Part shown: in pieces, positions 24,782 to 40,535 of the stretch
Position numbering within the stretch: the stretch's first letter is position 1
How the letters are laid out: the number at the start of each line of letters is the position of its first letter
DNA from: Dysgonomonas sp. ZJ279
GTDB taxonomy: Bacteria > Bacteroidota > Bacteroidia > Bacteroidales > Dysgonomonadaceae
NCBI RefSeq assembly: GCF_011039205.1
Contig: NZ_JAAKEL010000016.1
Span: 1-64,000 of the forward strand
Direction of reading: 5' to 3'
Length of the DNA stretch: 64,000 nucleotides
Position numbers and translations under genes: made by a program
Notes under the pieces: generated by a model
The model's input: the letters and a program-made list of their open reading frames with translations, nothing else
Told to the model about the DNA's origin: nothing
Database searches by the model: none

Positions 24782-25348
24782 TCAAAGACTTTCAATATTT
24801 GCCCTGCGTTTTCGTTTAAGATTTTTAAAAAAAGTAGGGGTTAATCCGGTTATCTTTTTAAATTGGTGGGATAGATGGGCGACACTGCTGTAATGTAATT
24901 TAAAAGCTATTTCGGTCAGATTCAGCTCGTCATATATGATTAGCTCTTTGACTTTCTCTATTTTGTGTATTATCATAAAGTGCTCAATAGTACAACCTTC
25001 CGCTTCTGAAAAAAGAGTGGCGAGATAGGTATAGTTATAACCTAATTTATCACTCAGGTAATCAGACAAATTTGTTTTTATCTCTTCATCGGAATAATGT
25101 ACCAGATTAATAATTATAGTTTTGATATGTTCTATAAGGATTGCTTTCTTATCATCTATCAGCTCTAATCCGGCTTTACTTAAAGCAACTTTTATCTGCT
25201 CATGTTGTTGTGCTGATATATTCTCTAAAATATCTATTTCACCTAAGTTCACTGAGATATAATGAAGTCCTAACTTTTTCAGTTCATCTATTACATACAT
25301 TTTACATCGGCGGCTGACCATGTATTTTACATATAACTTTTCTCCCAT
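24782..25348 (-). CDS. AraC-type regulator, stress-block paralogue B
   Basis: The 188-residue protein is a paralogue of the regulator at 9841-10401, identical at about half its positions by eye. It shares the N-terminal part KYMVSRRCKMYVIDELKKLG and the AraC HTH LNLTEIAFKLHYSSVAHLSH. The two copies bracket a 14-kb block of stress and envelope genes and are on the same strand. The N-terminal domain carries a conserved RC pair near residue 14 that might sense redox or metal, but this is speculation. Confidence 0.85.
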   Translation of the reverse strand: MGEKLYVKYMVSRRCKMYVIDELKKLGLHYISVNLGEIDILENISAQQHEQIKVALSKAGLELIDDKKAILIEHIKTIIINLVHYSDEEIKTNLSDYLSDKLGYNYTYLATLFSEAEGCTIEHFMIIHKIEKVKELIIYDELNLTEIAFKLHYSSVAHLSHQFKKITGLTPTFFKNLKRKRRANIESL

Positions 25349-26080: not shown

Positions 26081-26123
26081 GGGAACGGTTGCACAAAATG
26101 GGAACGGTTGCGGGAACGATTGC
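26081..26123. promoter_or_regulatory. Three tandem 12-bp operator repeats upstream of sucC (LacI-type)
   Basis: GGGAACGGTTGC occurs at 26081-26092 and 26100-26111, and GGGAACGATTGC directly after at 26112-26123. The same 12-mer is repeated four times at 32704-32758 beside the lacI-type gene. Each copy contains the central CG and the GAACG-TTGC layout of LacI-family sites. They lie about 100 bp before the sucC start codon. Confidence 0.75.
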
Positions 26124-26220
26124 TTTAAACATTTACTTTAGATATTTAGTTTATAATATTATATAGTTGTAAATTTAGATACATAAAGCCTAAGCTAGTT
26201 ATTAAATAAAATGATTAAAG

Positions 26221-27357
26221 ATGAAAACACACGAATATCAGGCGAAGCAGTTATTCATGGATTATGGGATTCCTATTCAGCCCTTTATCCTATGTCAAAC
26301 TACACAAGATGCAGTTGAGGCATACAGAGTATTAAATGCACCACTAGTGGTTGTAAAAGCACAAGTACTGACAGGGGGAAGGGGAAAAGCCGGAGGAATT
26401 AAACTGGCAAAAGATGAACACGAAGTTCTTGAATATTCACAAAAAATACTTAACCTGATGATCAAAGATTTTCATGTTGAGAAACTTATCGTAAATCCGG
26501 CTGTCAATATACAATCCGAATATTATGTGAGTTTTACCATAGACCGGAACACAAAATCAGTAAAACTGATTATGAGTGCCGAAGGAGGAATAGATATTGA
26601 AGATGTAGCCCAAAACACTCCCGGAAAAATACACCAATTTGTCATAGATCCATTTATTGGCATACCCGACTATTTAGCTCGTAAATTTGCATTTCTCTTT
26701 TTTAGCGATATTCTACTAGTTAACCAAATGGTCAGCATCATTCAACATCTATATCGTTTATTTATCGAAAAAGATGCTTCCCTGGCAGAGATCAACCCAC
26801 TGGTTGTTACTAAAGAAAATGAATTGATAGCTGTGGATGCCAAAATGGTTTTTGATGACAATGCTTTATATCGCCAACCTGAAATAAATAATTTGTATGA
26901 CCCTACTGAAGAGGAAAAGACAGAACTCTATGCCAAAGAGAAAGGATTTAGTTTTGTGCATTTAGACGGCGAAATAGGTTGTATGGTAAATGGAGCCGGA
27001 TTAGCAATGGCTACAATGGATCTCATAAAACTTTATGGCGGAAACCCTGCCAATTTTCTGGACATAGGAGGTAGCTCCAATCCTCAAAAAGTAATCGATG
27101 CCCTAAATTTACTTCTAAAAGACACACAAGTCAAAGTTGTCCTTATCAATATATTCGGAGGTATAACCCGATGTGACGATGTGGCTAACGGTTTACTTAA
27201 AGCATTTGAAAAGATAGAAACTAAAATACCTATTATTGTGCGTCTGACAGGTACAAACGAATTGGAAGGGCGTAATTTATTACAAGGCTCAAAGTTCAAG
27301 GTTGCTCAAACGATGAGCGAGGCTACTCGTATGGCTGTCAAAATTAGTAAACAGTAA
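26221..27357 (+). CDS. sucC: Succinyl-CoA synthetase beta subunit
   Basis: The 378-residue product is the ADP/GDP-forming acyl-CoA ligase beta chain: [20 protein letters not shown] at the start, the ATP-grasp loop [12 protein letters not shown] near residue 57, and the C-terminal CoA-ligase part [15 protein letters not shown] with [16 protein letters not shown]. It makes ATP from succinyl-CoA, or the reverse. It leads a unit with sucD and adhE directly under LacI-type repeats, which is unlike a housekeeping TCA location. It may thus be a catabolic, second copy that works on succinate or another acid. Confidence 0.92.
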
Positions 27358-27382
27358 ATTCAAAACTAAAAAATCAAACGCT

Positions 27383-28254
27383 ATGAGCATACTTATAAGT
27401 AAATCAACGCGACTAATAGTACAAGGAATAACAGGGCGTGATGGGAGTTTCCATACACAAAAAATGATAGACTACGGAACTAATATTGTGGGGGGAACAT
27501 CTCCGGGTAAAGGAGGAACCAGTGTACTTGGAGTTCCTGTTTTTAATACAGTGTACGATGCTGTAGAAAAAACCGAAGCGAATACATCCGTTATATTTGT
27601 TCCGGCTCGTTTAGCTGCCGATGCGATTATGGAAGCAGCTGATGCAGGGATAAAGCTGATTGTATGCATATCTGAAGGTATGCCAACTCTCGATGCAATA
27701 AAAGCATATCGTTATTCTCAACAGAAAGGATCTGTGCTTATTGGTCCTAATTGTCCCGGATTGATGTCGCCCGATGAATGTCTTGTTGGAATACTACCCG
27801 CACAAATATTCAAGAAAGGAAATATCGGTGTTATTAGCCGAAGCGGTACACTTACCTACGAAGTGGTTTATCAGCTTACTGCAAATGGCATGGGACAATC
27901 TTCTGCCGTGGGGATGGGAGGCGACCCTGTTGTAGGACTCTATTTCTGTGAATTGCTACAGATGTTTCAAGATGATCCCGAAACCGAAGGAATCGTGATG
28001 ATTGGCGAAATAGGAGGGAATGCAGAGGAGCTGGCCGCCGAATATATAAAAAACATATAACTAAACCTGTTGTTGGATTTATAGCCGGACAGGCAGCCCC
28101 GTCAGGGAAACAAATGGGGCATGCCGGAGCTATCATATCCAGCGGTGCAGGAACGGCTGCCGAAAAAATATCGGCTCTCGAATCGGCAGGTGTACCTGTT
28201 GCTAAAGAACCTGAGGAAATCCCTTCATTATTGAAATCAAAATTAAGTAAATAA
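27383..28254 (+). pseudogene. sucD: Succinyl-CoA synthetase alpha subunit, frameshifted near the 3' end
   Basis: From ATG 27383 the frame gives 225 residues ([42 protein letters not shown]) and stops at 28060. The rest of the family sequence follows in another frame to 28254: [20 protein letters not shown], then [21 protein letters not shown] run of six A at 28048-28053 is the break; seven A would restore one 290-residue chain. The phosphohistidine loop (GHAGA) lies after the break, so the short product could not carry out catalysis. A sequencing slip in the homopolymer is as likely as a true mutation. Confidence 0.88.
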
Positions 28255-28285
28255 CAGTTGTCTCACAGTAAACACATTCAAAATT

Positions 28286-30904
28286 ATGGTTGTTACCACT
28301 ATTGAGCAATTAGATGCTCTGATCAAAAAAGTAAAAAAGTCTCAACGAGAATATGCAACATATACTCAGGAGCAAGTAGACAAAATCTTCCATGCGGCAG
28401 CTATTGCAGCCTCTGCTATGAGAATCCCTTTAGCTAAAGCTGCTGTTGCAGAATCGGGCATGGGGATTGTAGAAGATAAAGTGATAAAGAATTTATTTGC
28501 ATCGGAGTATGTTTATAATAAATTCAAATCTGAAAGAACCTGTGGAGTTGTCGAAGAAAATGAAGAGATGGGAACAATTACAATTGCTGATCCTGTAGGA
28601 GTAATATGTGGGATAGTTCCTACAACAAACCCGACATCAACAGCAATTTTCAAAGCACTCATCAGCTTAAAAACCCGGAATGCAATTATCTTTTCGCCGC
28701 ATCCCAGAGCCAAAAAATCGACAAACGATGCAGCCAGAATTGTTTTGGAGGCTGCCGTTGCAGCCGGTGCGCCCCCCAATATAATCGGGTGGATCGATGA
28801 ACCATCTATCGAACTGTCAAATCAGTTGATGCACCATCCTGATGTAGATATTATTCTTGCCACAGGAGGGCCGGGAATGGTAAAGGCAGCTTATAGCTCG
28901 GGTAAGCCCGCATTGGGAGTTGGAGCCGGAAACACCCCTGTCGTTATAGATGAGACAGCAGATATCGATCGGGCTGTGGCATCTATCTTGATGTCCAAAA
29001 GCTTTGACAATGGTGTCATTTGTGCATCAGAGCAATCAGTAGTTATTGTTGAAAAGGTATATGATGCGGTTTTGAAACGTTTTGCCGAGTTGGGTGCATA
29101 CCTCCTTAAAGGAATAGAGCAACAAGCAATACGCGATATAATACTCGTAAAAGGAAACATAAATGCGGCAATAGTAGGTCAGTCAGCTTTCAGAATTGCT
29201 GAGCTGGCAGGATTCAAAGTGCCGAAAAAAAGTAAGGTGTTAATAGGGGAAGTATCGGAAATCAGTCAGAGTGAACCATTTGCTCATGAAAAGTTGTCTC
29301 CTGTTTTAGCAATTTATAGTGCCAAAAATTTTGGTGATGCAGTAAACAAAGCTCAACTATTGATAGAACTAGGAGGCCTGGGGCATACTTCGGTACTATA
29401 CACCGATCAGGACAATAATGCGGACAGAATTGCCGAATTCGGATTAAAATTGACAACAGGACGTATCCTGATTAATTCGCCTGCATCGCAAGGAGCAATT
29501 GGCGATTTGTACAATTTTAATATGTCACCTTCATTAACATTAGGTTGCGGATCATGGGGCGGAAATTCGATTTCCGAAAACGTTGGTCCTAAACACCTCC
29601 TGAATAAAAAAATAATTGCAAAAAGAGAAGAAAATATGTTATGGCTTAAATCACCGCAGTCAATCTATTTCCGTCGGGGTTCATTACAAACCGGATTAAA
29701 TCAGTTAGTAAAAAAAGGCGATATGAAAAGAGCCATTGTTATTACAGACAGCTTTCTCTATAACAATGGATACGTAAAACTGATCTCTGATATTCTTGTT
29801 CCACAAGGAATCAGCGTCGATGTTTTTTCAGGAGTTGAAGCCGATCCTACTCTGAGTGTAGTCAACAAGGGCGTTGAACAAATGAAAGCCTATAAACCTG
29901 ATACAATCATTGCTTTGGGGGGAGGTTCTCCCATGGATGCTGCCAAGTTGATGTGGCTGATGTATGAACATCCCGAGGTGAAATTTCAAGACTTGTCTAT
30001 GCGTTTTATGGATATCCTCAAACGTACATATCCTTATCCCGAATTAGGCGGAAAAGCGAAGCTTGTATGTATAACCACAACATCGGGCACAGGGTCGGAA
30101 GTAACACCATTTGCTGTAGTCACAGATGATGAGACAGGGAAGAAATATCCATTGGCAGACTACTCTCTTATGCCCCATACAGCTATTGTAGATGCCGATT
30201 TAGTAATGAATATGCCAAAATCTCTATGTGCATTCGGGGGTGTCGATGCAGTGACTCATGCTATCGAAGCATATGTGTCAGTTATGGCAAACGAATTTAC
30301 CGATGGTCAGGCATTACAGGCTCTCAAACTATTAAAAGACTATTTGCCTAGCAGTTATAAAGATGGAGCTAAAAATCCGATAGCTCGCGAACGTGTGCAT
30401 CATGCTGCTACATTAGCCGGAATAGCTTTTGGCAATGCTTTTCTAGGCGTTTGTCACTCGATGGCACACAAAATCGGAGCAGCATTTCATATCCCTCACG
30501 GATTGTCCAATGCACTTATGATCTCCAATGTGATTCGCTATAATGCAAATCCCAACCCGACCAAACAGGGTACGTTCAGCCAATATTCTCATCCTAAAGC
30601 GCATCTTCGCTATGCCGAAATAGCAGACCATCTACAATTAACTAGTGCTAAAGATGCTGTAGATGTAAAAGTTGAAAAACTTATTGCTTGGATTGAAAAT
30701 CTGAAAGAACAACTGAACATTCCGAAATCGATTAAGGAGTTTGGAGTAGACGAGAAACTTTTTATTGAAAAAATCGACTTATTAGCCGATGATGCATTCG
30801 ATGACCAATGTACAGGAACAAATCCCCGCTATCCACTCATTTCGGAGCTAAAGCAAATTTTGCTGGATACCTATTATGGTAGAGAATATAAAGAAGAAAA
30901 TTGA
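28286..30904 (+). CDS. adhE: Bifunctional aldehyde-alcohol dehydrogenase
   Basis: The 872-residue protein reduces acetyl-CoA (or another acyl-CoA) to the aldehyde and then the alcohol, consuming two NADH. Residues 1-450 are the acylating aldehyde dehydrogenase with the catalytic cysteine in FDNGVICASEQS (about residue 240); residues 460-870 are the iron alcohol dehydrogenase with GGGSPMDAAKLM, TTSGTGSEVTPFAV and the metal-binding HSMAHKIGAAFHIPHG. It is 31 bp after sucD in the LacI-flanked unit. In a sugar-alcohol regulon it would dispose of the extra NADH; succinyl-CoA made by SucCD is a possible alternative substrate. Confidence 0.95.
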   Translation: MVVTTIEQLDALIKKVKKSQREYATYTQEQVDKIFHAAAIAASAMRIPLAKAAVAESGMGIVEDKVIKNLFASEYVYNKFKSERTCGVVEENEEMGTITIADPVGVICGIVPTTNPTSTAIFKALISLKTRNAIIFSPHPRAKKSTNDAARIVLEAAVAAGAPPNIIGWIDEPSIELSNQLMHHPDVDIILATGGPGMVKAAYSSGKPALGVGAGNTPVVIDETADIDRAVASILMSKSFDNGVICASEQSVVIVEKVYDAVLKRFAELGAYLLKGIEQQAIRDIILVKGNINAAIVGQSAFRIAELAGFKVPKKSKVLIGEVSEISQSEPFAHEKLSPVLAIYSAKNFGDAVNKAQLLIELGGLGHTSVLYTDQDNNADRIAEFGLKLTTGRILINSPASQGAIGDLYNFNMSPSLTLGCGSWGGNSISENVGPKHLLNKKIIAKREENMLWLKSPQSIYFRRGSLQTGLNQLVKKGDMKRAIVITDSFLYNNGYVKLISDILVPQGISVDVFSGVEADPTLSVVNKGVEQMKAYKPDTIIALGGGSPMDAAKLMWLMYEHPEVKFQDLSMRFMDILKRTYPYPELGGKAKLVCITTTSGTGSEVTPFAVVTDDETGKKYPLADYSLMPHTAIVDADLVMNMPKSLCAFGGVDAVTHAIEAYVSVMANEFTDGQALQALKLLKDYLPSSYKDGAKNPIARERVHHAATLAGIAFGNAFLGVCHSMAHKIGAAFHIPHGLSNALMISNVIRYNANPNPTKQGTFSQYSHPKAHLRYAEIADHLQLTSAKDAVDVKVEKLIAWIENLKEQLNIPKSIKEFGVDEKLFIEKIDLLADDAFDDQCTGTNPRYPLISELKQILLDTYYGREYKEEN

Positions 30905-30928
30905 AAAACTTATTAAAAAAATAGACCT

Positions 30929-31585
30929 ATGAAATTTTTTATCGACACGGCTAACCTCGACCAAATTCGGGAGGCCAATGATCTGGGAGTACTCGATGGT
31001 GTAACTACCAATCCCTCATTGATGGCAAAGGAAGGAATAAAAGGAGCAGATAATCAGCAAAAACATTATCTCGAGATCTGCAAAATAGTAGAAGGAGATG
31101 TGAGTGCGGAAGTAATTGCAACCGATTATGAAGGAATTATTCGCGAAGGTGAAGTTTTGGCAAACCTTCATCCTAATATCGTAGTGAAAGTTCCTTGTAT
31201 CGAATCCGGCATAAAAGCAATCAAGTATTTTAGCCAAAAAGGCATCCGAACAAATTGTACGCTGATATTCTCGATAGGGCAGGCACTACTTGCAGCAAAA
31301 GCCGGTGCAACCTATGTTTCGCCTTTTGCGGGCAGGCTCGACGATATTGCCAGCGATGGTATAGGGCTGATTCGTAGCATTGTCAGCATGAATGCTACAT
31401 ATAGTTTCGAAACGCAGGTTCTGGCAGCCTCCATCCGAAGTGTACAGCATATAATCCAATGTGTCGAAGCAGGTGCAGATGTAGCTACTTGTCCATTGGC
31501 TCCTATTAAAGGGTTGCTTAAACATCCGTTGACCGATAGCGGACTCGCAACTTTTTTAGCCGATTACAAAAAAGTGAATGGATAA
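30929..31585 (+). CDS. Transaldolase / fructose-6-phosphate aldolase-type enzyme
   Basis: The 218-residue protein belongs to the short transaldolase group (TalC/FSA): MKFFIDTANLDQIREAND, DGVTTNPSLMAKEG, and the Schiff-base lysine 87 in NIVVKVPCIESGIKA. Fructose-6-phosphate aldolase has the same size; sequence alone does not separate the two activities. It is 24 bp after adhE. With the transketolase at 36276 it would move erythrose 4-phosphate into hexose phosphate, which fits the proposed polyol pathway. Confidence 0.88.
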   Translation: MKFFIDTANLDQIREANDLGVLDGVTTNPSLMAKEGIKGADNQQKHYLEICKIVEGDVSAEVIATDYEGIIREGEVLANLHPNIVVKVPCIESGIKAIKYFSQKGIRTNCTLIFSIGQALLAAKAGATYVSPFAGRLDDIASDGIGLIRSIVSMNATYSFETQVLAASIRSVQHIIQCVEAGADVATCPLAPIKGLLKHPLTDSGLATFLADYKKVNG

Positions 31586-31610
31586 ATAAACGCAAGCAGG
31601 GCTAATTACT

Positions 31611-31640
31611 AAAGAGGGTAAAATCAATTTTATCCTCTTT
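31611..31640. terminator. Two-way terminator between the transaldolase and lacI-type genes
   Basis: AAAGAGGGTAAAA (31611-31623) pairs with TTTTATCCTCTTT (31628-31640) with one G-T wobble and a 4-base loop, flanked by T-rich sequence on the plus strand. The two genes are convergent. Confidence 0.85.
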
Positions 31641-31645
31641 CTTTT

Positions 31646-32647
31646 TTAAGTAGACTGTCTGATAACTATTTCGGCATCTAAGATTATAGTTTCACAAGAC
31701 GACTCGGGGTCATTAATTTTCTTTATTATTTGTTCGGCAGACACCCGTCCCATTTTTTCGAAAGGTTGCTGTATAGCGGTTAGTTGTGGGGTTACGATAG
31801 TGCTTAAATAAGTTCCCGAAAATCCGCAGATCGCTATTTCTTCGGGCACCTTTATTCCTTGCGATTGTATATAACTCAGTGCTCCTATTGACAAAGTTTC
31901 TCCAAAACTGAAAATAGCATCGAAGGGTATTTTTTTTCTTAGAAAATCCCTTATTACACGTTCGCCTTCCGAACGTTCATTTTCACCTTCTATTAACAAT
32001 TCGGGATCGAAGGGTATTTTAAATTTAGCCAAAGAATCCTTATAAGCCTTTTTGCGTTCTTCGGTATTGGGGATTCTCGCTGGTCCTGCAAGATGAAGAA
32101 TACGTTTGCGTCCCGATCTGATCAAATGCTCCATCATAAGCATCGATTTGACGTAATCGTTTACAATAACCTTGCATGCATGTATCTTAGATGGTACACG
32201 ATCGAAAAAAACAATAGGAATACCCTCTTCCTGTAAACGGAAATACTCCTTCAGGTTTATATCACTATGACATACACTCATAATAATACCATCTACCCTA
32301 TAGTTCTCCATCAACTTCAGATTATACGATTCGGCTTGAGGGTCTTCGTGCGATTGTGTAATGATAACTTTAAACCCTTGCTCATCCAGTACCTTCTGCG
32401 CACTCATGATTACATACATGAAAAAGGGGGTAACCATTTCGGGAACAATAATTCCGACAGTCTTACTCTGTTGCATACGAAGGTTTGCAGCTATATCGTT
32501 ACGCTTATACCCCATTTTATTTGCTAATGCCACTACTTTTTCACGTGTCTCCTTACTCACATTACTATCGCCTGATAATGCTCTCGATACAGTAGATTTT
32601 GAAATATCGAGTTCTTTGGCAATATCTTTAATAGTAGTGTATTTCAT
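31646..32647 (-). CDS. LacI-family transcriptional regulator of the polyol regulon
   Basis: The 333-residue protein has an N-terminal LacI HTH (TIKDIAKELDISKSTVSRAL) and hinge helix (RNDIAANLRMQQSKTVGIIV), then a periplasmic-binding-like sensor domain (VIVNDYVKSMLMMEHLI, CGFSGTYLSTIVTPQLTAIQ). It lies between the two arms of the catabolic cluster and is divergent from the EltD-like gene. Tandem 12-bp repeats in the shared 208-bp intergenic region and again before sucC are its likely operators. The effector is probably the polyol, its ketose or a sugar phosphate. Confidence 0.9.
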   Translation of the reverse strand: MKYTTIKDIAKELDISKSTVSRALSGDSNVSKETREKVVALANKMGYKRNDIAANLRMQQSKTVGIIVPEMVTPFFMYVIMSAQKVLDEQGFKVIITQSHEDPQAESYNLKLMENYRVDGIIMSVCHSDINLKEYFRLQEEGIPIVFFDRVPSKIHACKVIVNDYVKSMLMMEHLIRSGRKRILHLAGPARIPNTEERKKAYKDSLAKFKIPFDPELLIEGENERSEGERVIRDFLRKKIPFDAIFSFGETLSIGALSYIQSQGIKVPEEIAICGFSGTYLSTIVTPQLTAIQQPFEKMGRVSAEQIIKKINDPESSCETIILDAEIVIRQST

Positions 32648-32703
32648 GATTTTCAGCTTTTTAGTTTCTTAAATATAAGCTTTTTTTTCCATATCTCAAA
32701 ATA

Positions 32704-32758
32704 GGGAACGATTGCGGGAACGATTGCATTAATTGGGAACGATTGCGGGAACGATTGA
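32704..32758. promoter_or_regulatory. Four tandem 12-bp operator repeats between lacI-type and dehydrogenase genes
   Basis: GGGAACGATTGC is repeated at 32704-32715 and 32716-32727, and after seven bases again at 32735-32746 and (last base changed to A) 32747-32758. The pairs are head-to-tail with a 12-bp period. The same word occurs three times upstream of sucC at 26081-26123. The site can control both divergent genes. Confidence 0.8.
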
Positions 32759-32855
32759 AATAACAAGATATGTTATATACACTGATTTCCAATTTTATAA
32801 GCCATATTTTAGTATTCGGATAATATATCCCAATTAATCTTTTAAAAAAAATATC

Positions 32856-33950
32856 ATGAATACAATTGAATTACCGAAAAAAATGAGAGCAGTGGTAGCC
32901 TACGCACCGGGTGATTATCGTTTCGAAGTGGTTGACACACCTCGGGCAGGGGAAGGCGAAATGATACTTAAAGTAGAGGCTTGTGGCGTATGTGCAGGCG
33001 ATACAAAAGCTTTTGGTGGTGCACCCAGCTTCTGGGGAGGCGACGGAAGCCCTTCTTATATCAAAGCACCCATGATACCCGGGCACGAATTTGTAGGGAC
33101 CGTAGTTGAAATGGGACCCAAAGTAAAGGGGAAATGGAAAATCGGCGACCGTATTTGTCCTGAACAAATAGTGCCATGCGAAGAGTGTATGTTTTGTAAG
33201 ACAGGACGTCATTGGATGTGTGAAAAGCATGACCTATACGGATTTCAGAATAATGTGAACGGGGGAATGGCTGAATATATCAGATTGACGAAAGAATCGT
33301 TAAATTACCTTGTTCCGAAAGAGCTTCCAATCGAAAAGGCGGTACTTATCGAACCTTACGGATGCTCATTCCATTGTGTAAAACGTGCAAACGTAGGTGT
33401 TACAGACGTTGTTGTGCTTTCCGGAGCCGGAACTCTTGGTCTGGGAATGGTTGGGGCAATCAAACAACATAATCCAAAATGTTTAGTTGTACTTGACATG
33501 AAAGACGAACGTCTCGAACTGGCTAAGAAATTTGGAGCCGATATTGTATTGAATCCGGCAAAAACCGATGTCGTAAAAGAAATTAAGGATATGACAGGAG
33601 GTTATGGCTGCGATATCTACATAGAGGCTACAGGACACCCATCCAGTGTTCGTCAGGGACTGGAAGCAATCCGTAAAATGGGGACTTTTGTTGAGTTCAG
33701 TGTATTCGGAGACTTAGTTACAGTAGATTGGAGTATTATCAGCGACCGTAAAGAGTTGAATCTTTTAGGTGCACATCTTAGCCCATACTGCTATGATACT
33801 GTGATAGAATGGCTAGGAAACGGGAAATTACCAAGTGAAGGTGTAGTGACTCACAAGTTTCCGCTTGAAAAATGGGAAGAGGCTTTCCATTTAGCTAAAA
33901 CAGGAGAAAACGGAGCATTGAAAATTATTCTTGTTCCCGATATGCAATAA
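32856..33950 (+). CDS. Zinc-dependent sugar-alcohol dehydrogenase (erythritol/L-threitol dehydrogenase-like)
   Basis: The 364-residue medium-chain dehydrogenase has catalytic zinc residues in CGVCAGDTKAFGG and IPGHEFVG, a structural zinc loop CEECMFCKTGRHWMC, and the nucleotide site VVLSGAGTLGLGMVG. The CAGD-K-GA--FWGG wording and length fit the EltD group that oxidises erythritol and L-threitol to L-erythrulose in Mycobacterium. It is the first gene of the right arm, next to dhaK and dhaL homologues, as in tetritol pathways. Other C4 or C5 polyols remain possible. Confidence 0.75.
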   Translation: MNTIELPKKMRAVVAYAPGDYRFEVVDTPRAGEGEMILKVEACGVCAGDTKAFGGAPSFWGGDGSPSYIKAPMIPGHEFVGTVVEMGPKVKGKWKIGDRICPEQIVPCEECMFCKTGRHWMCEKHDLYGFQNNVNGGMAEYIRLTKESLNYLVPKELPIEKAVLIEPYGCSFHCVKRANVGVTDVVVLSGAGTLGLGMVGAIKQHNPKCLVVLDMKDERLELAKKFGADIVLNPAKTDVVKEIKDMTGGYGCDIYIEATGHPSSVRQGLEAIRKMGTFVEFSVFGDLVTVDWSIISDRKELNLLGAHLSPYCYDTVIEWLGNGKLPSEGVVTHKFPLEKWEEAFHLAKTGENGALKIILVPDMQ

Positions 33951-34103
33951 ATACAAGCCGTACTATACTCAAGATATGGAGCCGGAATAAAACTGATTCT
34001 TTCTGCTAACAGTGCCGGCTCTTTTCATAAGTTTTATTAAAATATTTAGGTGTATCGAAAGATACGTCAGGGCATTCTATGCTTTTAAAAAACCAAAAAT
34101 ACC

Positions 34104-35102
34104 ATGCAAAGAATATTAAACGATCCGGACAATATAGTTGATGAAATGCTCTGCGGCTTTCTGAAAACTCATAACGATATAGTTGAGAAGACAACAAACT
34201 CACGAGTTGTAAAATCGGTCGAACCAGTTAAAGAACGTGTTGGCGTAGTTACAGGAGGCGGTTCAGGACACAAACCTGCATTTATAGGATATGTAGGAAA
34301 AAACATGTGTGATGCTGTTGCCGTTGGCGAAATTTGCTCTTCACCCACAGCTGTAGCATTTCTCGATGCTTGCAAAGCAGCCAATGGAGGTAAAGGTGTC
34401 GCATGCCTTTACGGAAACTACTCAGGCGATAATATGAATGTGAAGATGGCTGTAAAAATGGCGGCTAAGGAAGGTCTAGAGGTAAAAACAGTTGTTGCAA
34501 ACGATGATGTAGCCTCAGCTCCGAAAGACCAACGGGAAAAGCGTCGTGGAGTGGCCGGTGAGATTCTGATGTGGAAAGTGGGTGGTGCGAAAGCCAATAT
34601 GGACGGATCGCTCGACGAAGTAATTGTAGCAGTACAGAAAGCCATTGACAATACACGCAGCGTTGGTATTGGTCTTACACCATGTGTATTACCTGCTGTT
34701 GGACATGCGAATTTCGAAATCGAACCGGGAACAATGGAAGTGGGAATTGGTCATCACGGCGAACCGGGTATCGAAGTATGTGCTTTGGAGACGGCAAACG
34801 AAATGGCTAAACGTATGGTAGATGTAGTGCTTCCCGATTATCCATTTGTCGCAGGCGATGAGGTTGTGGTTTTGGTGTCAGGGCTTGGAGCTACTCCGGT
34901 TATGGAACTTTACGTTCTTTATAACGAAATCGAAAAACTGATCTCAGAAAAAGGAATCAAGATTCACCGATCGTATGTGGGAAATTATTTCACATCGCTC
35001 GAAATGATGGGAGCTACACTCACTGTAATGAAACTGGATGACGAATTGAAAACTCTGATCGATATGCCTGCCAACAGTGTAGGACTTAAACAATGCCGAT
35101 AG
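34104..35102 (+). CDS. dhaK: DhaK-type ketose kinase, substrate-binding subunit
   Basis: The 332-residue protein is the K subunit of the dihydroxyacetone kinase family. Residues known from E. coli DhaK are at the same positions: histidine 56 in GGGSGHKPA, aspartate 109 in NYSGDNMN and the covalent substrate-binding histidine 218 in GIGHHGEPG. With DhaL 22 bp downstream it would phosphorylate a short ketose. No DhaM or other PTS donor is nearby, so ATP is the probable donor. In context erythrulose is a better candidate substrate than dihydroxyacetone; relatives (LerK, DerK) do this in Mycobacterium. Confidence 0.88.
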   Translation: MQRILNDPDNIVDEMLCGFLKTHNDIVEKTTNSRVVKSVEPVKERVGVVTGGGSGHKPAFIGYVGKNMCDAVAVGEICSSPTAVAFLDACKAANGGKGVACLYGNYSGDNMNVKMAVKMAAKEGLEVKTVVANDDVASAPKDQREKRRGVAGEILMWKVGGAKANMDGSLDEVIVAVQKAIDNTRSVGIGLTPCVLPAVGHANFEIEPGTMEVGIGHHGEPGIEVCALETANEMAKRMVDVVLPDYPFVAGDEVVVLVSGLGATPVMELYVLYNEIEKLISEKGIKIHRSYVGNYFTSLEMMGATLTVMKLDDELKTLIDMPANSVGLKQCR

Positions 35103-35805: not shown

Positions 35806-36267
35806 ATGAAAATAGCAATCGGTTGCGATGAAGCAGCATACAGCCTAAAGGTTGAGCTGATTAAACATTTAGATAGTAAAGGTATCGAAGTCAAAGATTT
35901 CGGAGCCAATGCCGGAGAGGTAGTTTTATACCCCGATGTGGCAGTAGCAGTAGCTCGGTCTGTTGCAAATGGCGAATTCGAGCGGGCAGTTTTGGTCTGT
36001 GGCACAGGAATAGGCATGGCTATTACAGCCAATAAAGTTCCGGGAGTAAGAGCTGCTGTTTGTCACGATCCATTTTCAGCTCAGCGTGCCCGTAAGAGCA
36101 ACGATGCACAGATTATTTGCTTCGGAGAGAGAGTTATCGGTGTAGAACTGGCTAAAAATCTGCTTGATATTTGGTTAGAATCCGAATTCGGTGGTGGAGG
36201 TTCGACATCTAAAGTAGAGCTAATCGCTCAATATGAACACGAGTTTATGAAAGAAATAGCAAAGTAA
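35806..36267 (+). CDS. RpiB/LacAB-type sugar-phosphate isomerase 1
   Basis: The 153-residue protein belongs to the RpiB family: MKIAIGCDEAAYSLK, active-site cysteine 65 in VLVCGTGIGMAI, and SNDAQIICFGERVIG. The start reads CDEAAY where ribose-5-phosphate isomerases read DHAG(Y/F), a change seen in the erythrulose-4-phosphate/erythrose-4-phosphate isomerase branch (DerI/EryI). It is 21 bp after dhaL and 8 bp before the transketolase gene. I infer D-erythrulose 4-phosphate to D-erythrose 4-phosphate as its reaction; a pentose phosphate is the alternative. Confidence 0.8.
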   Translation: MKIAIGCDEAAYSLKVELIKHLDSKGIEVKDFGANAGEVVLYPDVAVAVARSVANGEFERAVLVCGTGIGMAITANKVPGVRAAVCHDPFSAQRARKSNDAQIICFGERVIGVELAKNLLDIWLESEFGGGGSTSKVELIAQYEHEFMKEIAK

Positions 36268-36275
36268 GAAAAAGT

Positions 36276-38303
36276 ATGAATGATATAAACACAATAAGTA
36301 AGGCAGCCGATAATATCCGCTTGTTATCGGCCGCAATGGTTGAAAAGGCCAAATCGGGACATCCTGGAGGAGCAATGGGAGGTGCCGATTTTATCAACGT
36401 CCTTTTTTCCGAATATATCGAATACGATCCTCTAAATCCGGAGTGGGAAAATCGTGACCGCTTCTTTCTCGACCCCGGACACATGTCGCCCATGTTGTAC
36501 TCTACACTGGCGTTGACCGGCAAATTCAGCATTGATGATCTTAAACAGTTTCGTCAGTGGGGAAGCGTAACACCCGGGCATCCCGAGAGGGATTTGTCAA
36601 GAGGGATCGAAAATACATCGGGTCCTCTGGGGCAGGGGCATACATTTGCTGTTGGAGCTTCAATAGCTGCAAAATTTTTACAACATCGCTTCGGAGAAAT
36701 AATGAGTCATAAAATTTATACTTTTATTTCAGACGGAGGAGTTCAGGAAGAAATTTCGCAAGGAGCAGGCAGAATTGCCGGGCATTTAGGGTTAAACAAC
36801 CTGATTATGTTTTATGATTCGAACGGTATACAATTATCTACCGAAACCAGCGAAGTTACCCAAGAAGATGTAGCCGCAAAATATAAAGCCTGGGGATGGC
36901 GTGTAATAGAGATCGACGGACATAATATTGCTCAGATAAGAGCTGCATTAGACGGTGCTAAATCCGAAAAAGAAAAACCGACTCTTATCATCGGGAAAAC
37001 AATTATGGGTAAAGGAGCATGCAAGTTCGATGGATCGAGCATGGAAGGTACAACAGCTACTCACGGGCAACCGTTGAGTGCAGCAGGTGCATGTTTCGAT
37101 TCCACTATCAAAAATTTGGGAGGTGACCCTTCCGATCCTTTTGCTATTTTTCCCGAAACAGAAATGCTTTATGCCAAGCGTACGTCAGAACTGAATACAA
37201 TAGTTGCCCGCAAAAAAGTTGAAAAATCAGTTTGGGCAAAAGCCAATCCCGAGTTGAAAGTTAAACTCACATCTTGGTTTGCAGGAGAGTTGCCTGTTAT
37301 CGATTGGGGAAATATCGAACAAAAGGCCGATCAGGCAACACGTACAGCTTCGTCCACCGTTTTAGGAGTACTGGCAAAGGGGATAGAAAACATGATCGTT
37401 TCGTCCGCCGATCTTTCTAATTCTGACAAGACAGATGGTTTCTTGAAATGTACGCGCAGTATACAAAAAAACGATTTTGGGGGAAAATTTCTTCAAGCAG
37501 GTGTTTGCGAACTTACAATGGCTTGTCTTTGTATCGGTATGACTCTGCATGGAGGTGTAGTAACGGCTTGCGGAACATTCTTTGTGTTCTCGGATTATAT
37601 GAAACCTGCTGTCCGCATGGCGGCACTAATGGAAATACCTATTAAGTTTATTTGGACACACGATGCTTTTCGTGTAGGTGAAGACGGACCGACACACGAA
37701 CCCGTTGAGCACGAAGCCCAGATACGTTTAATGGAAAAACTTCAGAATCACAGTGGACAAAACTCGATGCTTGTTCTCCGTCCGGCAGATGTAACTGAAA
37801 CAACCATGGCGTGGAAAATGGCAATGGAGAACAAAAAAACACCTTCGGCATTAATCCTTTCGCGTCAAAACATCAACGATCTGCCACCACACGCAAACCG
37901 CTATAAAGAGGCATTGGAGGCTCAAAAAGGAGCGTATATTGTTTGTGAAAATGACAGATACGACGTAATTCTTCTAGCCTCGGGTTCAGAGGTGTCTACC
38001 TTGGTAGATGCTGCCAATATTTTGAAAGATAAAGGTATTAAATCGAGGATTGTATCTGTCCCATCCGAAGGCTTATTTCGTTCTCAAAGCAAAGAATATC
38101 AAGAATCTGTAATCCCGGCAGATAAAAAAATATTCGGGCTTACAGCAGGCTTATCTGTCACCCTCGAAGGCTTAGTAGGAAACAATGGTAAGGTATGGGG
38201 ATTGAATTCTTTCGGTTTTTCTGCACCATATACTGTCCTTGATGAAAAGCTTGGTTTCACAGCTATTCAGGTGGCGAGACAAATTGAAAATCTCTTGAAT
38301 TAA
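36276..38303 (+). CDS. tkt: Transketolase
   Basis: The 675-residue single-chain enzyme transfers two-carbon units between sugar phosphates. It shows KSGHPGGAMGGADF near residue 27, the thiamine-diphosphate motif SDGGVQEEISQGA ending in NNLIMFYDSNG, the pyrimidine domain HDAFRVGEDGPTHEPVEH and LRPADVTET. The motif GDGCLMEG of common transketolases is replaced by SDGGVQEE, which suggests a specialised second copy. The gene follows rpiB directly. It would use erythrose 4-phosphate as acceptor in the proposed pathway. Confidence 0.93.
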   Translation: MNDINTISKAADNIRLLSAAMVEKAKSGHPGGAMGGADFINVLFSEYIEYDPLNPEWENRDRFFLDPGHMSPMLYSTLALTGKFSIDDLKQFRQWGSVTPGHPERDLSRGIENTSGPLGQGHTFAVGASIAAKFLQHRFGEIMSHKIYTFISDGGVQEEISQGAGRIAGHLGLNNLIMFYDSNGIQLSTETSEVTQEDVAAKYKAWGWRVIEIDGHNIAQIRAALDGAKSEKEKPTLIIGKTIMGKGACKFDGSSMEGTTATHGQPLSAAGACFDSTIKNLGGDPSDPFAIFPETEMLYAKRTSELNTIVARKKVEKSVWAKANPELKVKLTSWFAGELPVIDWGNIEQKADQATRTASSTVLGVLAKGIENMIVSSADLSNSDKTDGFLKCTRSIQKNDFGGKFLQAGVCELTMACLCIGMTLHGGVVTACGTFFVFSDYMKPAVRMAALMEIPIKFIWTHDAFRVGEDGPTHEPVEHEAQIRLMEKLQNHSGQNSMLVLRPADVTETTMAWKMAMENKKTPSALILSRQNINDLPPHANRYKEALEAQKGAYIVCENDRYDVILLASGSEVSTLVDAANILKDKGIKSRIVSVPSEGLFRSQSKEYQESVIPADKKIFGLTAGLSVTLEGLVGNNGKVWGLNSFGFSAPYTVLDEKLGFTAIQVARQIENLLN

Positions 38304-39233: not shown

Positions 39234-40535
39234 ATGGAAAAATACAAAGAGAATATTTTAGATAGAATTGGTATTCCACATGCTTTGGCATGGGGATACC
39301 TGGGGATACTCATTTTTATGATGGGAGACGGAGTTGAACAGGGTTGGTTGAGTAAATATTTGATAGATGGTGGACTGACCGAAGCCGAATCGGCTCTTGT
39401 ATTTACAGTATATGGAGTTACTATTGGCATATCTTCTTGGCTTTCGGGCGTTCTGTCTGATATGTGGGGTGTAAGAAGGACAATGTTCTACGGACTGATA
39501 ATTTATCTGCTCGGAGTCATCGGTTTTGTAAGTATTGGTTTGGGAGGGTTCAATTTTGCTCTTATGCTGATTATGTACGGAATCAAAGGCTTTGGCTATC
39601 CTCTGTTTGCCTATACCTTCCTTGTATGGATCGCTAAAAAATCTCCCGGTTCGATGCTCGGAAAAGCCGTAGGTTGGTTTTGGTTTGTATTTACCGGAGG
39701 ATTAAGCGTATTAGGAGCAATATATGCAAGTTGGGCGACAACGGCGATCGGTTATATTCCAACCCTGTGGTCGGCTGTTATATGGGCATTGATAGGTGCA
39801 TTGTTTGCACTGGTTTTTATGAAATTCAAAACAAAAAATGAGACTGAAAAAGCCCCCTCTGAGAAGGCTACTATGAATGGTTTGTTCAATGGATTTACAA
39901 TTATAAAAAAAGAACCTAAAGTTGGTATTGCCGGTATTATACGGTTAATCAATACTATAACTCTATTTGGTTTCCCTGTTTTTATGCCCTTGTATATGGA
40001 GGGAGTGGGATTTACAGAGTCGGAATGGCTTCATATATGGGCTGTAGCTGTTGGAGGTAACATTATTTTTAACCTAATATTCGGCTTTGTCGGCGATATG
40101 ATCGGTTGGAGAAAAACTATTATGTGGTTCGGATGTGTAGGATGTACAATTACAACGCTGTTGTTTTATTATTCTGCTCAGATTTTCCCCAATAATATAA
40201 TTTTTGTAATGATCTGCGGATTCCTTTGGGGAATGACTCTTGCCGGATATGTACCATTATCTGCACTTGTACCTTCGCTAGTGAAGGAAGAAAAAGGAGC
40301 GGCAATGTCGATTCTTAATCTCGGTGCAGGTCTGTCGGCCTTTTTAGGTCCGGCAATCATTGGTATCGTCTATTGGCTTGGAGGTAGCGGTACAGTTATT
40401 ATCTGGACATTTGCTGCCTTATATATCATTACAGCTTTTTTGAGCCGCTTTATTGCTCTCCCCGAAGAAAAGTTAGGAACCCCAAGACAAATACGTAAAT
40501 TGGAATTGGCACAGTTAAAATTGACAGAAAAATGA
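39234..40535 (+). CDS. MFS permease of the polyol (RbtT/DalT) type
   Basis: The 433-residue protein has twelve membrane segments. The N-terminal run ALAWGYLGILIFMMGDGVEQ, the loop SGVLSDMWGVRRTMFYG and GDMIGWRKTIMWFG in the second half are characteristic of the ribitol/arabitol transporter group of the major facilitator superfamily. It would import the sugar alcohol across the inner membrane by proton symport. The stop overlaps the start of the second rpiB gene (ATGA), showing tight coupling. Confidence 0.85.
   Translation: MEKYKENILDRIGIPHALAWGYLGILIFMMGDGVEQGWLSKYLIDGGLTEAESALVFTVYGVTIGISSWLSGVLSDMWGVRRTMFYGLIIYLLGVIGFVSIGLGGFNFALMLIMYGIKGFGYPLFAYTFLVWIAKKSPGSMLGKAVGWFWFVFTGGLSVLGAIYASWATTAIGYIPTLWSAVIWALIGALFALVFMKFKTKNETEKAPSEKATMNGLFNGFTIIKKEPKVGIAGIIRLINTITLFGFPVFMPLYMEGVGFTESEWLHIWAVAVGGNIIFNLIFGFVGDMIGWRKTIMWFGCVGCTITTLLFYYSAQIFPNNIIFVMICGFLWGMTLAGYVPLSALVPSLVKEEKGAAMSILNLGAGLSAFLGPAIIGIVYWLGGSGTVIIWTFAALYIITAFLSRFIALPEEKLGTPRQIRKLELAQLKLTEK

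Follow-up and report, generated by a model that had tools for sequence, protein, structure and literature searches.

According to the survey by Ravcheev et al. 2014 (PMC4052901), overlapping sites of LacI-family regulators are conserved in orthologous groups and are hard to square with the known structures. Such sites, including GntR sites as at E. coli gntKU, are too close for dimers to bind side by side, show preferred intersite distances and occur in groups of three or four. Bacteroides contributes about 1-2% of the regulons in the survey set. Here, we describe operator arrays in a stretch of 64,000 nucleotides from Dysgonomonas sp. ZJ279 (contig NZ_JAAKEL010000016.1, positions 1 to 64,000), which is referred to in its full length as the window. 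Three copies of a 12-bp word lie before sucC and four between a LacI-family regulator gene and the gene of an EltD-like polyol dehydrogenase. The copies of the second group are likewise conserved, and those of both groups are too close for side-by-side dimers and are grouped by three or four at preferred distances. However, the published peaks are at 13, 22 and 32 bp, whereas here distances of 12, 19 and 31 bp are combined in one array and with promoter phasing.

Action from an upstream position is known for several regulators. At gal OE of E. coli a dimer of GalR, also of the LacI family, binds upstream, contacts RNA polymerase, activates one promoter and inhibits another (PMC4693257), but GalR uses a single operator and a distant looping one instead of an array of three or four. 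CcpA, likewise a LacI-family protein, activates ackA, pta and ilvB from cre sites upstream of -35 in a manner dependent on the helix face (PMC3463425). It is a global regulator working with HPr-Ser-P on a cre site, and in this respect differs from the arrays described here. A similar position is taken by the activator at class I promoters of CRP, which sits ahead of the core promoter at about -61.5 (PMC4693257), although CRP belongs to an unrelated protein family and the housekeeping sigma factor and promoter elements differ in Bacteroidota (PMC7366714). UxaR, UxuR, KdgR and UxmR of Bacteroides are, like the regulator studied here, LacI-family sugar regulators of the Bacteroidota with predicted sites; they belong to sugar-acid pathways, and the main-text passages on them hold neither 12/19 arrays nor phasing (PMC4052901, PMC3878776). 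In the open-access literature searched, we recognised no report of 12/19/31 arrays or of promoter-phased LacI arrays in Bacteroidota. The new elements are this spacing grammar and the promoter phasing; LacI sites that overlap at about 13 bp have been described before, as a structural puzzle. As the array is stereotyped, often phased and kept over a clade with natural variants, it makes the sharing of DNA between LacI dimers accessible to direct tests.

Seven candidate operators in two arrays

An earlier note on this DNA had reported three copies of the word just before sucC and four between the lacI-type and EltD-like genes, and all seven were recovered there:

26081..26092, + strand: operator site 1 of the sucC arm, GGGAACGGTTGC, centre 19 bp from site 2
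26100..26111, + strand: operator site 2 of the sucC arm, GGGAACGGTTGC, 12 bp to site 3
26112..26123, + strand: operator site 3 of the sucC arm, GGGAACGATTGC, promoter-nearest, G 26118 lying 52 bp from a -7-like element
32704..32715, + strand: operator site 1 of the lacI/eltD arm, GGGAACGATTGC, from the motif scan
32716..32727, + strand: operator site 2 of the lacI/eltD arm, GGGAACGATTGC, from the motif scan
32735..32746, + strand: operator site 3 of the lacI/eltD arm, GGGAACGATTGC, from the motif scan
32747..32758, + strand: operator site 4 of the lacI/eltD arm, GGGAACGATTGA, one mismatch, nearest the eltD promoter

The statement that the word occurs nowhere else in the window also held, as only these seven 12-mers are found at zero to one mismatch, all in the two arrays. 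With up to two mismatches there are 15 matches against 3.25 expected, a number that none of 100 shuffles reached, which rules out a chance origin of the repeats. In the 4.1-Mb genome GGGAACGRTTGC has eight exact copies, six of them in the arrays and two as single copies within open reading frames (ORFs) of 1081 and 485 codons. A genome-wide search for direct tandems of the word, not extended to inverted arrays, found none beyond the two arms, and no close group besides them was seen among the first 100 of 139 one-mismatch matches.

All seven 12-mers have a central CG at positions 6-7. The word is a CG-centred pseudo-palindrome built from two unlike half-sites, GGGAAC and GCAATC, and so has the form of a LacI/GalR operator; with complementary pairs at just three of six positions, GGGAACGATTGC is an imperfect palindrome. 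By eye, each half-site was seen in both orientations in relatives. The earlier description of the copies as a head-to-tail series every 12 bp is therefore correct for the 12-bp steps only: the steps are 19 and 12 bp in the sucC array and 12, 19 and 12 bp in the lacI/eltD array, and the head-to-tail order is merely apparent because the word is a pseudo-palindrome with half-sites in either orientation in relatives. Adjacent dimers had furthermore been expected on rotated faces of the helix. A hand calculation with 10.5 bp per turn puts the four sites at 0, +51, -17 and +34 degrees; since 12 and 19 add up to 31 bp, or about three helix turns, the four sites lie on roughly one side of the DNA and this expectation was not supported.

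A spacing grammar in a clade of LacI regulators

The gene next to the four-site array was assigned, like all genes named here, by Pfam and NCBIfam profile scans:

31646..32647, - strand: LacI-family regulator, PF00356 at 54.6 bits (cut-off 27), with periplasmic-binding-protein domains

An N-terminal helix-turn-helix and a periplasmic-binding core (PF00532, 99 bits, cut-off 22.2) define it as a member of the LacI/GalR family, and none of the 18 NCBIfam models matched reached its cut-off. It is one of two LacI-domain genes in this genome at E <= 0.001.

Spacing was studied as the distance between the CpG centres of LacI-like cores in 80 related loci that were found with a LacI alignment. With strict cores, 26 cases were counted at 12 bp, 27 at 19 bp and 32 at 31 bp, and at most five at any other distance from 3 to 60 bp; control cores gave largest single counts of 5 (GC), 9 (TA) and 10 (AT), all at other distances. 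Adding the core AACGTT raised the counts to 42 at 12 bp, 49 at 19 bp and 37 at 31 bp, with 13 at 20 bp and at most five at each remaining distance from 4 to 60 bp, and no such signal appeared with GC cores. Six of the 42 12-bp pairs are coding and lie in one conserved stretch of a mannitol-dehydrogenase-type ORF (L067 4708, L070 4667, L073 1964, L077 4738, L080 4739, L087 4739). Protein conservation is their likely cause, an internal operator being also possible; they inflate the 12-bp counts by six, and the phased fraction treated below can only be lowered by them, as none has a box at a phased distance. The 20-bp pairs are mostly from Chryseobacterium, in which perfect GGGAACGTTCCC pairs stand 20 and not 19 bp apart (L083, L084, L086, L088-L092, L094 near 5931).

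A motif-free analysis of the 400 bp upstream of lacI in 79 loci gave 12 bp in 26, 19 bp in 27, 20 bp in 10 and 31 bp in 17, and its GC-core control 2, 4, 0 and 11, respectively; the 11 matches at 31 bp are taken to come from GC steps within the arrays. The relatives are not independent, which protein clustering and removal of near-copies correct in part, and the sample is one of Bacteroidota. At 50% identity (74 clusters), 12 bp is found in 17, 19 bp in 9, 31 bp in 8 and 43 bp in 5 clusters, with others in at most 3; at 40% identity (30 clusters) the numbers are 6, 5, 4 and 5, with others in at most 2. The published spacing of 13 bp occurs in none of the 80 loci and is not listed for the 79 upstream regions, and the window has exactly 12.

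As a hold-out, 30 further relatives were collected by LacI queries, not by arrays. Five were the window itself or already in the set (L006, L256, L257, L258, L262), and the other 25, two of them near-copies of earlier loci, were put to a fixed test. It returned 12 bp in 14 loci, 19 bp in 11, 31 bp in 9 and 43 bp in 2, with 7, 18 and 30 bp once each, and no distance whatever in 8 of the 25. The grammar of 12, 19, 31 and sometimes 43 bp between CpG centres thus recurs in a Bacteroidota LacI clade and in the hold-out loci, with 12-19-12, 12-19, 19-12, 12 or 19 alone, 12-12 and 20 as natural variants. The 12-bp spacing, regarded in the earlier note as a peculiarity, is instead the rule of a clade.

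Outside the clade the rule is weaker. A Pfam-drawn sample of the order comprised 110 LacI loci, 99 with an upstream region, and showed 12 bp in 9 and other distances in at most 2, while its GC-core control gave 3 at 12 bp and 6 at 10 bp; the 12-bp rule is therefore a minority trait there, against a noisier background. With strict cores, the 30 best-scoring LacI loci of the order had no 12, 19 or 31 bp. Two other LacI loci of the order (L195 near 1768, L206 near 1301) have, by eye, three abutting operators in a 12-12 arrangement with half-sites of the GTTTGC type.

Most array labels cluster on the tree of the regulator. From 204 loci, 11 of which yielded no LacI protein, 193 remained and 186 proteins entered a FastTree phylogeny, which was computed with long-branch warnings. 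The window protein falls into a clade of 83 rows with a support of 95, and 62 of these carry 12, 19, 20 or 31 bp, as do 10 of the 103 rows outside. The labels 12+19, 19/20/31 and none cluster on the tree beyond all 500 shuffles; the label 12 alone does not, 39 of the 500 shuffles being as low. A comparison of residues diagnostic of the clade brought out no mechanism. In one locus, L115, a Bacteroidota-like LacI protein and a 19-bp pair are found although the contig bears the label of an alphaproteobacterium (Thalassovita sp. metagenome-assembled genome, MAG), probably through a binning error.

The clustering also bears on the question of whether another protein, such as an AraC-type, hybrid two-component or global factor, binds direct repeats here with the LacI gene as a bystander. 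Bacteroides hybrid two-component regulators do use direct repeats about 21 bp apart (PMC3878776), and an AraC-type gene lies near the sucC array (24782-25348). However, CG-centred palindromes are the signature of the LacI family (PMC4052901), the array labels cluster on the LacI tree, and in the ORF lists of the two Dysgonomonas genomes with the same array (G004 and G010, see below) no AraC-type-like ORF was seen beside the array by eye, no search being made. We regard a different binding protein as very improbable.

Phasing of the arrays with a promoter

Bacteroidota promoters carry TAnnTTTG as their -7 box, together with a -33 element whose spacing varies (PMC7366714). Promoters and operators were assigned by consensus. 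Of the 25 rows with a 12-19 array, 19 have an exact -7 box for the divergent gene that begins 51 or 52 bp away from the operator closest to it, whereas the distance towards lacI varies from 29 to 130. Over 74 arrays, the box distances peak at 51-53 and 62-64, with a smaller peak at 35-36. Because the peak at 62-64 equals the first plus 12 and belongs to arrays without the promoter-proximal site, the operators can be assigned to four slots, located 51, 63, 82 and 94 bp ahead of this box. At its other end, the array is separated by 35-36 bp from an exact lacI-directed -7 box in ten loci (L069, L073, L077, L080, L082, L085, L087, L095, L096, L097).

With near-copies removed and the hold-out included, 37 of 70 distinct arrays, most of which are those in which the phasing was first seen, have an exact box at 51-53 (26) or 62-64 (12); in 300 rounds with shuffled flanks the mean was 0.43 and the maximum 3. 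Among the new hold-out loci with an array, 5 of 15 have the box at 51-53 (L266, L267, L270, L271, L273). The phased arrays are all of the GGGA/GCAA operator type (37 of 58), with none among 12 of the CGGAAA type. Arrays of the CGGAAACGTTTCCG type keep the 12 and 19 bp and are unphased (L123, L133, L135, L136, L144, L265, L276, L279), and this group may therefore regulate differently.

In the window, the following candidate elements were found:

32805..32812, + strand: candidate -7 element TATTTTAG of the eltD-like promoter, 5/6 to TAnnTTTG, 52 bp from G 32753
26170..26177, + strand: candidate -7 element TAAATTTA of the sucC promoter, 5/6 to TAnnTTTG, 52 bp from G 26118
32670..32677, - strand: candidate -7-like element TATATTTA of lacI, 32 bp from the nearest operator, weak

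TATTTTAG is the sole 5-of-6 match at distances 9-100, the chance of one at 51-53 being 0.0325; for TAAATTTA the chance of so good a match at 51-53 in a shuffled flank is 0.025. For the arrays of G004 and G010 the elements at 52 are TAAATTAG and TAATTTAG, neither of which has a rival 5-of-6 match in its flank. An element of this quality would fall at 51-53 by chance with a probability of 2-4% for each of the four arrays. A position of the class I type, at a fixed distance upstream and outside the core promoter, is accordingly found in 37 of the 70 arrays by exact boxes and in the window by 5-of-6 elements.

Conservation and the extent of the probable regulon

Among 25 genomes of the genus, the tandem word occurs in three, namely this one, G004 and G010. 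In the latter two it lies between the eltD-like gene and a lacI orthologue, whose protein identity is 73% in G004 and, measured over two fragments, 81-84% in G010, both times as a 12-19-12 array, and the 7-bp spacers differ in sequence among the three 12-19-12 Dysgonomonas arrays. In 393 genomes of the order, a draw that does not contain G004 and G010, the tandem pattern was found in this genome only. A sucC homologue at E < 1e-80 is present in 17 of the 25 genus genomes, and GGGAACGNTT was absent from the fetched sucC loci of all 16 others that have one in a whole-locus scan; the upstream stretches of six sucC loci were read a second time.

The proposal that one LacI regulon covers both arms, whose arrays are 6.6 kb apart, gained support: the tandem word is found nowhere else in this genome, the array stays with lacI/eltD in G004 and G010, and a -7-like element stands at 52 bp in both arms. 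The sucC and lacI/eltD arms are thus probably one regulon, for which the array and phase common to both are the strongest evidence. It could be objected that the array at sucC arose by recent copying and has no function, as it occurs in one species only and its spacer resembles, by eye, that of the lacI/eltD array of G004. On the other hand, its -7-like element keeps the distance of 52 bp seen in the other arm and in relatives, though two matches compete with it, and the flanks outside the array differ. A non-functional copy therefore appears improbable to us.

A possible mode of regulation

We infer binding of the LacI protein, joint binding of its dimers, the sign of regulation and the inducer from the sequence. 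The 12-mers would be the operators of the LacI-family protein encoded at 31646-32647, which may occupy the array, held at a fixed distance from the catabolic -7 box (slots 51, 63, 82 and 94 bp upstream), as several close-packed dimers on roughly one face of the DNA. Contact between neighbouring dimers is argued from the exact spacing kept over the clade. With the -7 box centred on -7, the operators would fall near -63, -75, -94 and -106 and leave the core promoter free. From there, the array-bound regulator could act on RNA polymerase as an activator of a class I-like kind rather than as a repressor, which is the more likely sign by analogy; class I CRP at -61.5, GalR at gal OE and CcpA upstream of -35 favour activation at modest odds. 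The switch may be a four-carbon polyol, its ketose or its phosphate. Taken together, a LacI-family regulator of four-carbon polyol use that acts on one regulon from a phased, close-packed array upstream of the promoters, with activation as the more likely sign, is given slightly better than an even chance. A wider suggestion, that the LacI proteins of this Bacteroidota clade act as class I-like activators and bind as a cooperative, close-packed oligomer on the slots 51, 63, 82 and 94, is more tentative and falls somewhat short of even.

Several observations weigh against this interpretation. The LacI family consists mostly of repressors. An exact box at 51-53 is missing from all five 12-19-12 rows, two of which represent one locus, and the phasing is absent from all 12 CGGAAA-type arrays and from 21 of the 58 others. 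The window arrays themselves lack an exact -7 box and have 5/6 elements only, and the sucC flank holds two equally good -7-like matches at 16 and 44. A loose pattern of two AACGNTT cores and TAnnTTTG in one orientation was found in 73 of 392 genomes of the phylum, and the reversed controls, untotalled, looked at least as full by eye, so this phylum-wide search is counted as negative. A weak -33 box was considered as a mark of activator dependence and discarded, TTG being present at 21-25 in 7 of 34 cases against 42 of 200 in the comparison. The sucC array, found in one species only, speaks against a general two-arm regulon. Finally, GalR at gal OE also represses one promoter (PMC4693257), and the family survey judges dimers about 13 bp apart unable to interact (PMC4052901, section 9).

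The last point leads to the reading that 12-bp neighbours are alternatives, steric conflict allowing one dimer per abutting pair, with either sign of regulation. The array would then consist of two interleaved same-face pairs 31 bp apart (sites 1 and 3 or 2 and 4) and serve for more occupancy or as a two-state switch. The contact zones of dimers 13 bp apart do overlap strongly (PMC4052901), and 31 bp is a preferred distance. However, a loose choice between sites would not need exactly 12 and 19 bp, and 19-bp pairs are common on their own, so that we consider mutually exclusive neighbours a real possibility, but one clearly short of even.

An ordinary repressor could also bind upstream, control both arms and itself by polymerase contact, by blocking an activator or by looping between the arrays over 6.6 kb, and be released by the polyol. 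This would be the default of the family. GalR at OE inhibits P1 by contact (PMC4693257), CcpA at lev, an exception to its rule of upstream activation, blocks an activator from upstream (PMC3463425), and in the ten relatives named above the other array end is near enough to the lacI-directed -7 box to interfere. On the other side, the phased arrays would not cover the region between about -50 and the start, and they keep a constant distance to the catabolic promoter but a more variable one to the lacI promoter. Repression from upstream is a serious possibility, which we rate as clearly short of even. Should the arrays prove to activate, the common view of a LacI gene next to a sugar operon in Bacteroidota as the gene of its repressor would be wrong for this clade, with consequences for the prediction of regulons and the construction of switches in gut bacteria; an activator oligomer on such an array would be a binding mode and a sign of regulation not predicted by the LacI paradigm.

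Genes of the two arms

The genes around the two arrays are:

24782-25348: AraC-type gene near the sucC array
26221..27357, + strand: sucC, ADP-forming succinate-CoA ligase beta, NF001913 at 485 bits (cut-off 370)
27383..28060, + strand: sucD alpha subunit, frame broken near the 3' end, NF004230, residues 1-224 matching profile positions 1-224 of 291
28286..30904, + strand: adhE, bifunctional acetaldehyde-CoA/alcohol dehydrogenase, NF010378 at 1412.7 bits (cut-off 951)
30929..31585, + strand: transaldolase/fructose-6-phosphate aldolase type (talC/fsa), TIGR00875 at 258 bits (cut-off 246)
32856..33950, + strand: zinc-dependent polyol dehydrogenase (EltD-like), PF08240 and PF00107
34104..35102, + strand: DhaK-type kinase subunit, PF02733 at 365 bits
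35125..35784, + strand: DhaL-type kinase subunit, TIGR02365 at 169 bits (cut-off 138)
35806..36267, + strand: RpiB-type sugar-phosphate isomerase, TIGR01120 at 158.6 bits (cut-off 138.65)
36276..38303, + strand: transketolase-like, TIGR00232 at 596 bits (below the cut-off of 682)
39234..40535, + strand: MFS transporter, PF07690
40532..40972, + strand: second RpiB-type isomerase, PF02502

A set of polyol dehydrogenase, kinase and isomerase is present, and NF051858 (D-erythrulose-4-phosphate isomerase) scored 159 without reaching its cut-off of 240. We take the gene set to fit a route from a four-carbon polyol, such as erythritol or threitol, to erythrose-4-phosphate and on to transketolase and transaldolase. 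In such a route the eltD arm would supply dehydrogenase, kinase, isomerase and transketolase, while in the sucC arm the transaldolase would feed erythrose-4-phosphate onward and AdhE would dispose of excess NADH. In L067 and L069, which are among the closest relatives inspected, genes for mannitol-type or zinc polyol dehydrogenases, MFS transporters and PfkB kinases adjoin the array, and polyol use is therefore a likely theme of the regulator.

In the sucD region (27383-28250) a stop follows after 225 codons and the remainder of the gene is in another frame, so that sucD is frameshifted or mis-assembled; the only sucC homologue of this genome found at E < 1e-80 is the one adjoining this broken sucD. 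Between the eltD-like gene and dhaK, a stretch without it in the window (33950-34104), G010 and G004 have a short-chain dehydrogenase gene (L030 1860-2627 and L029 4451-5218), of which the G010 copy was scanned with Pfam.

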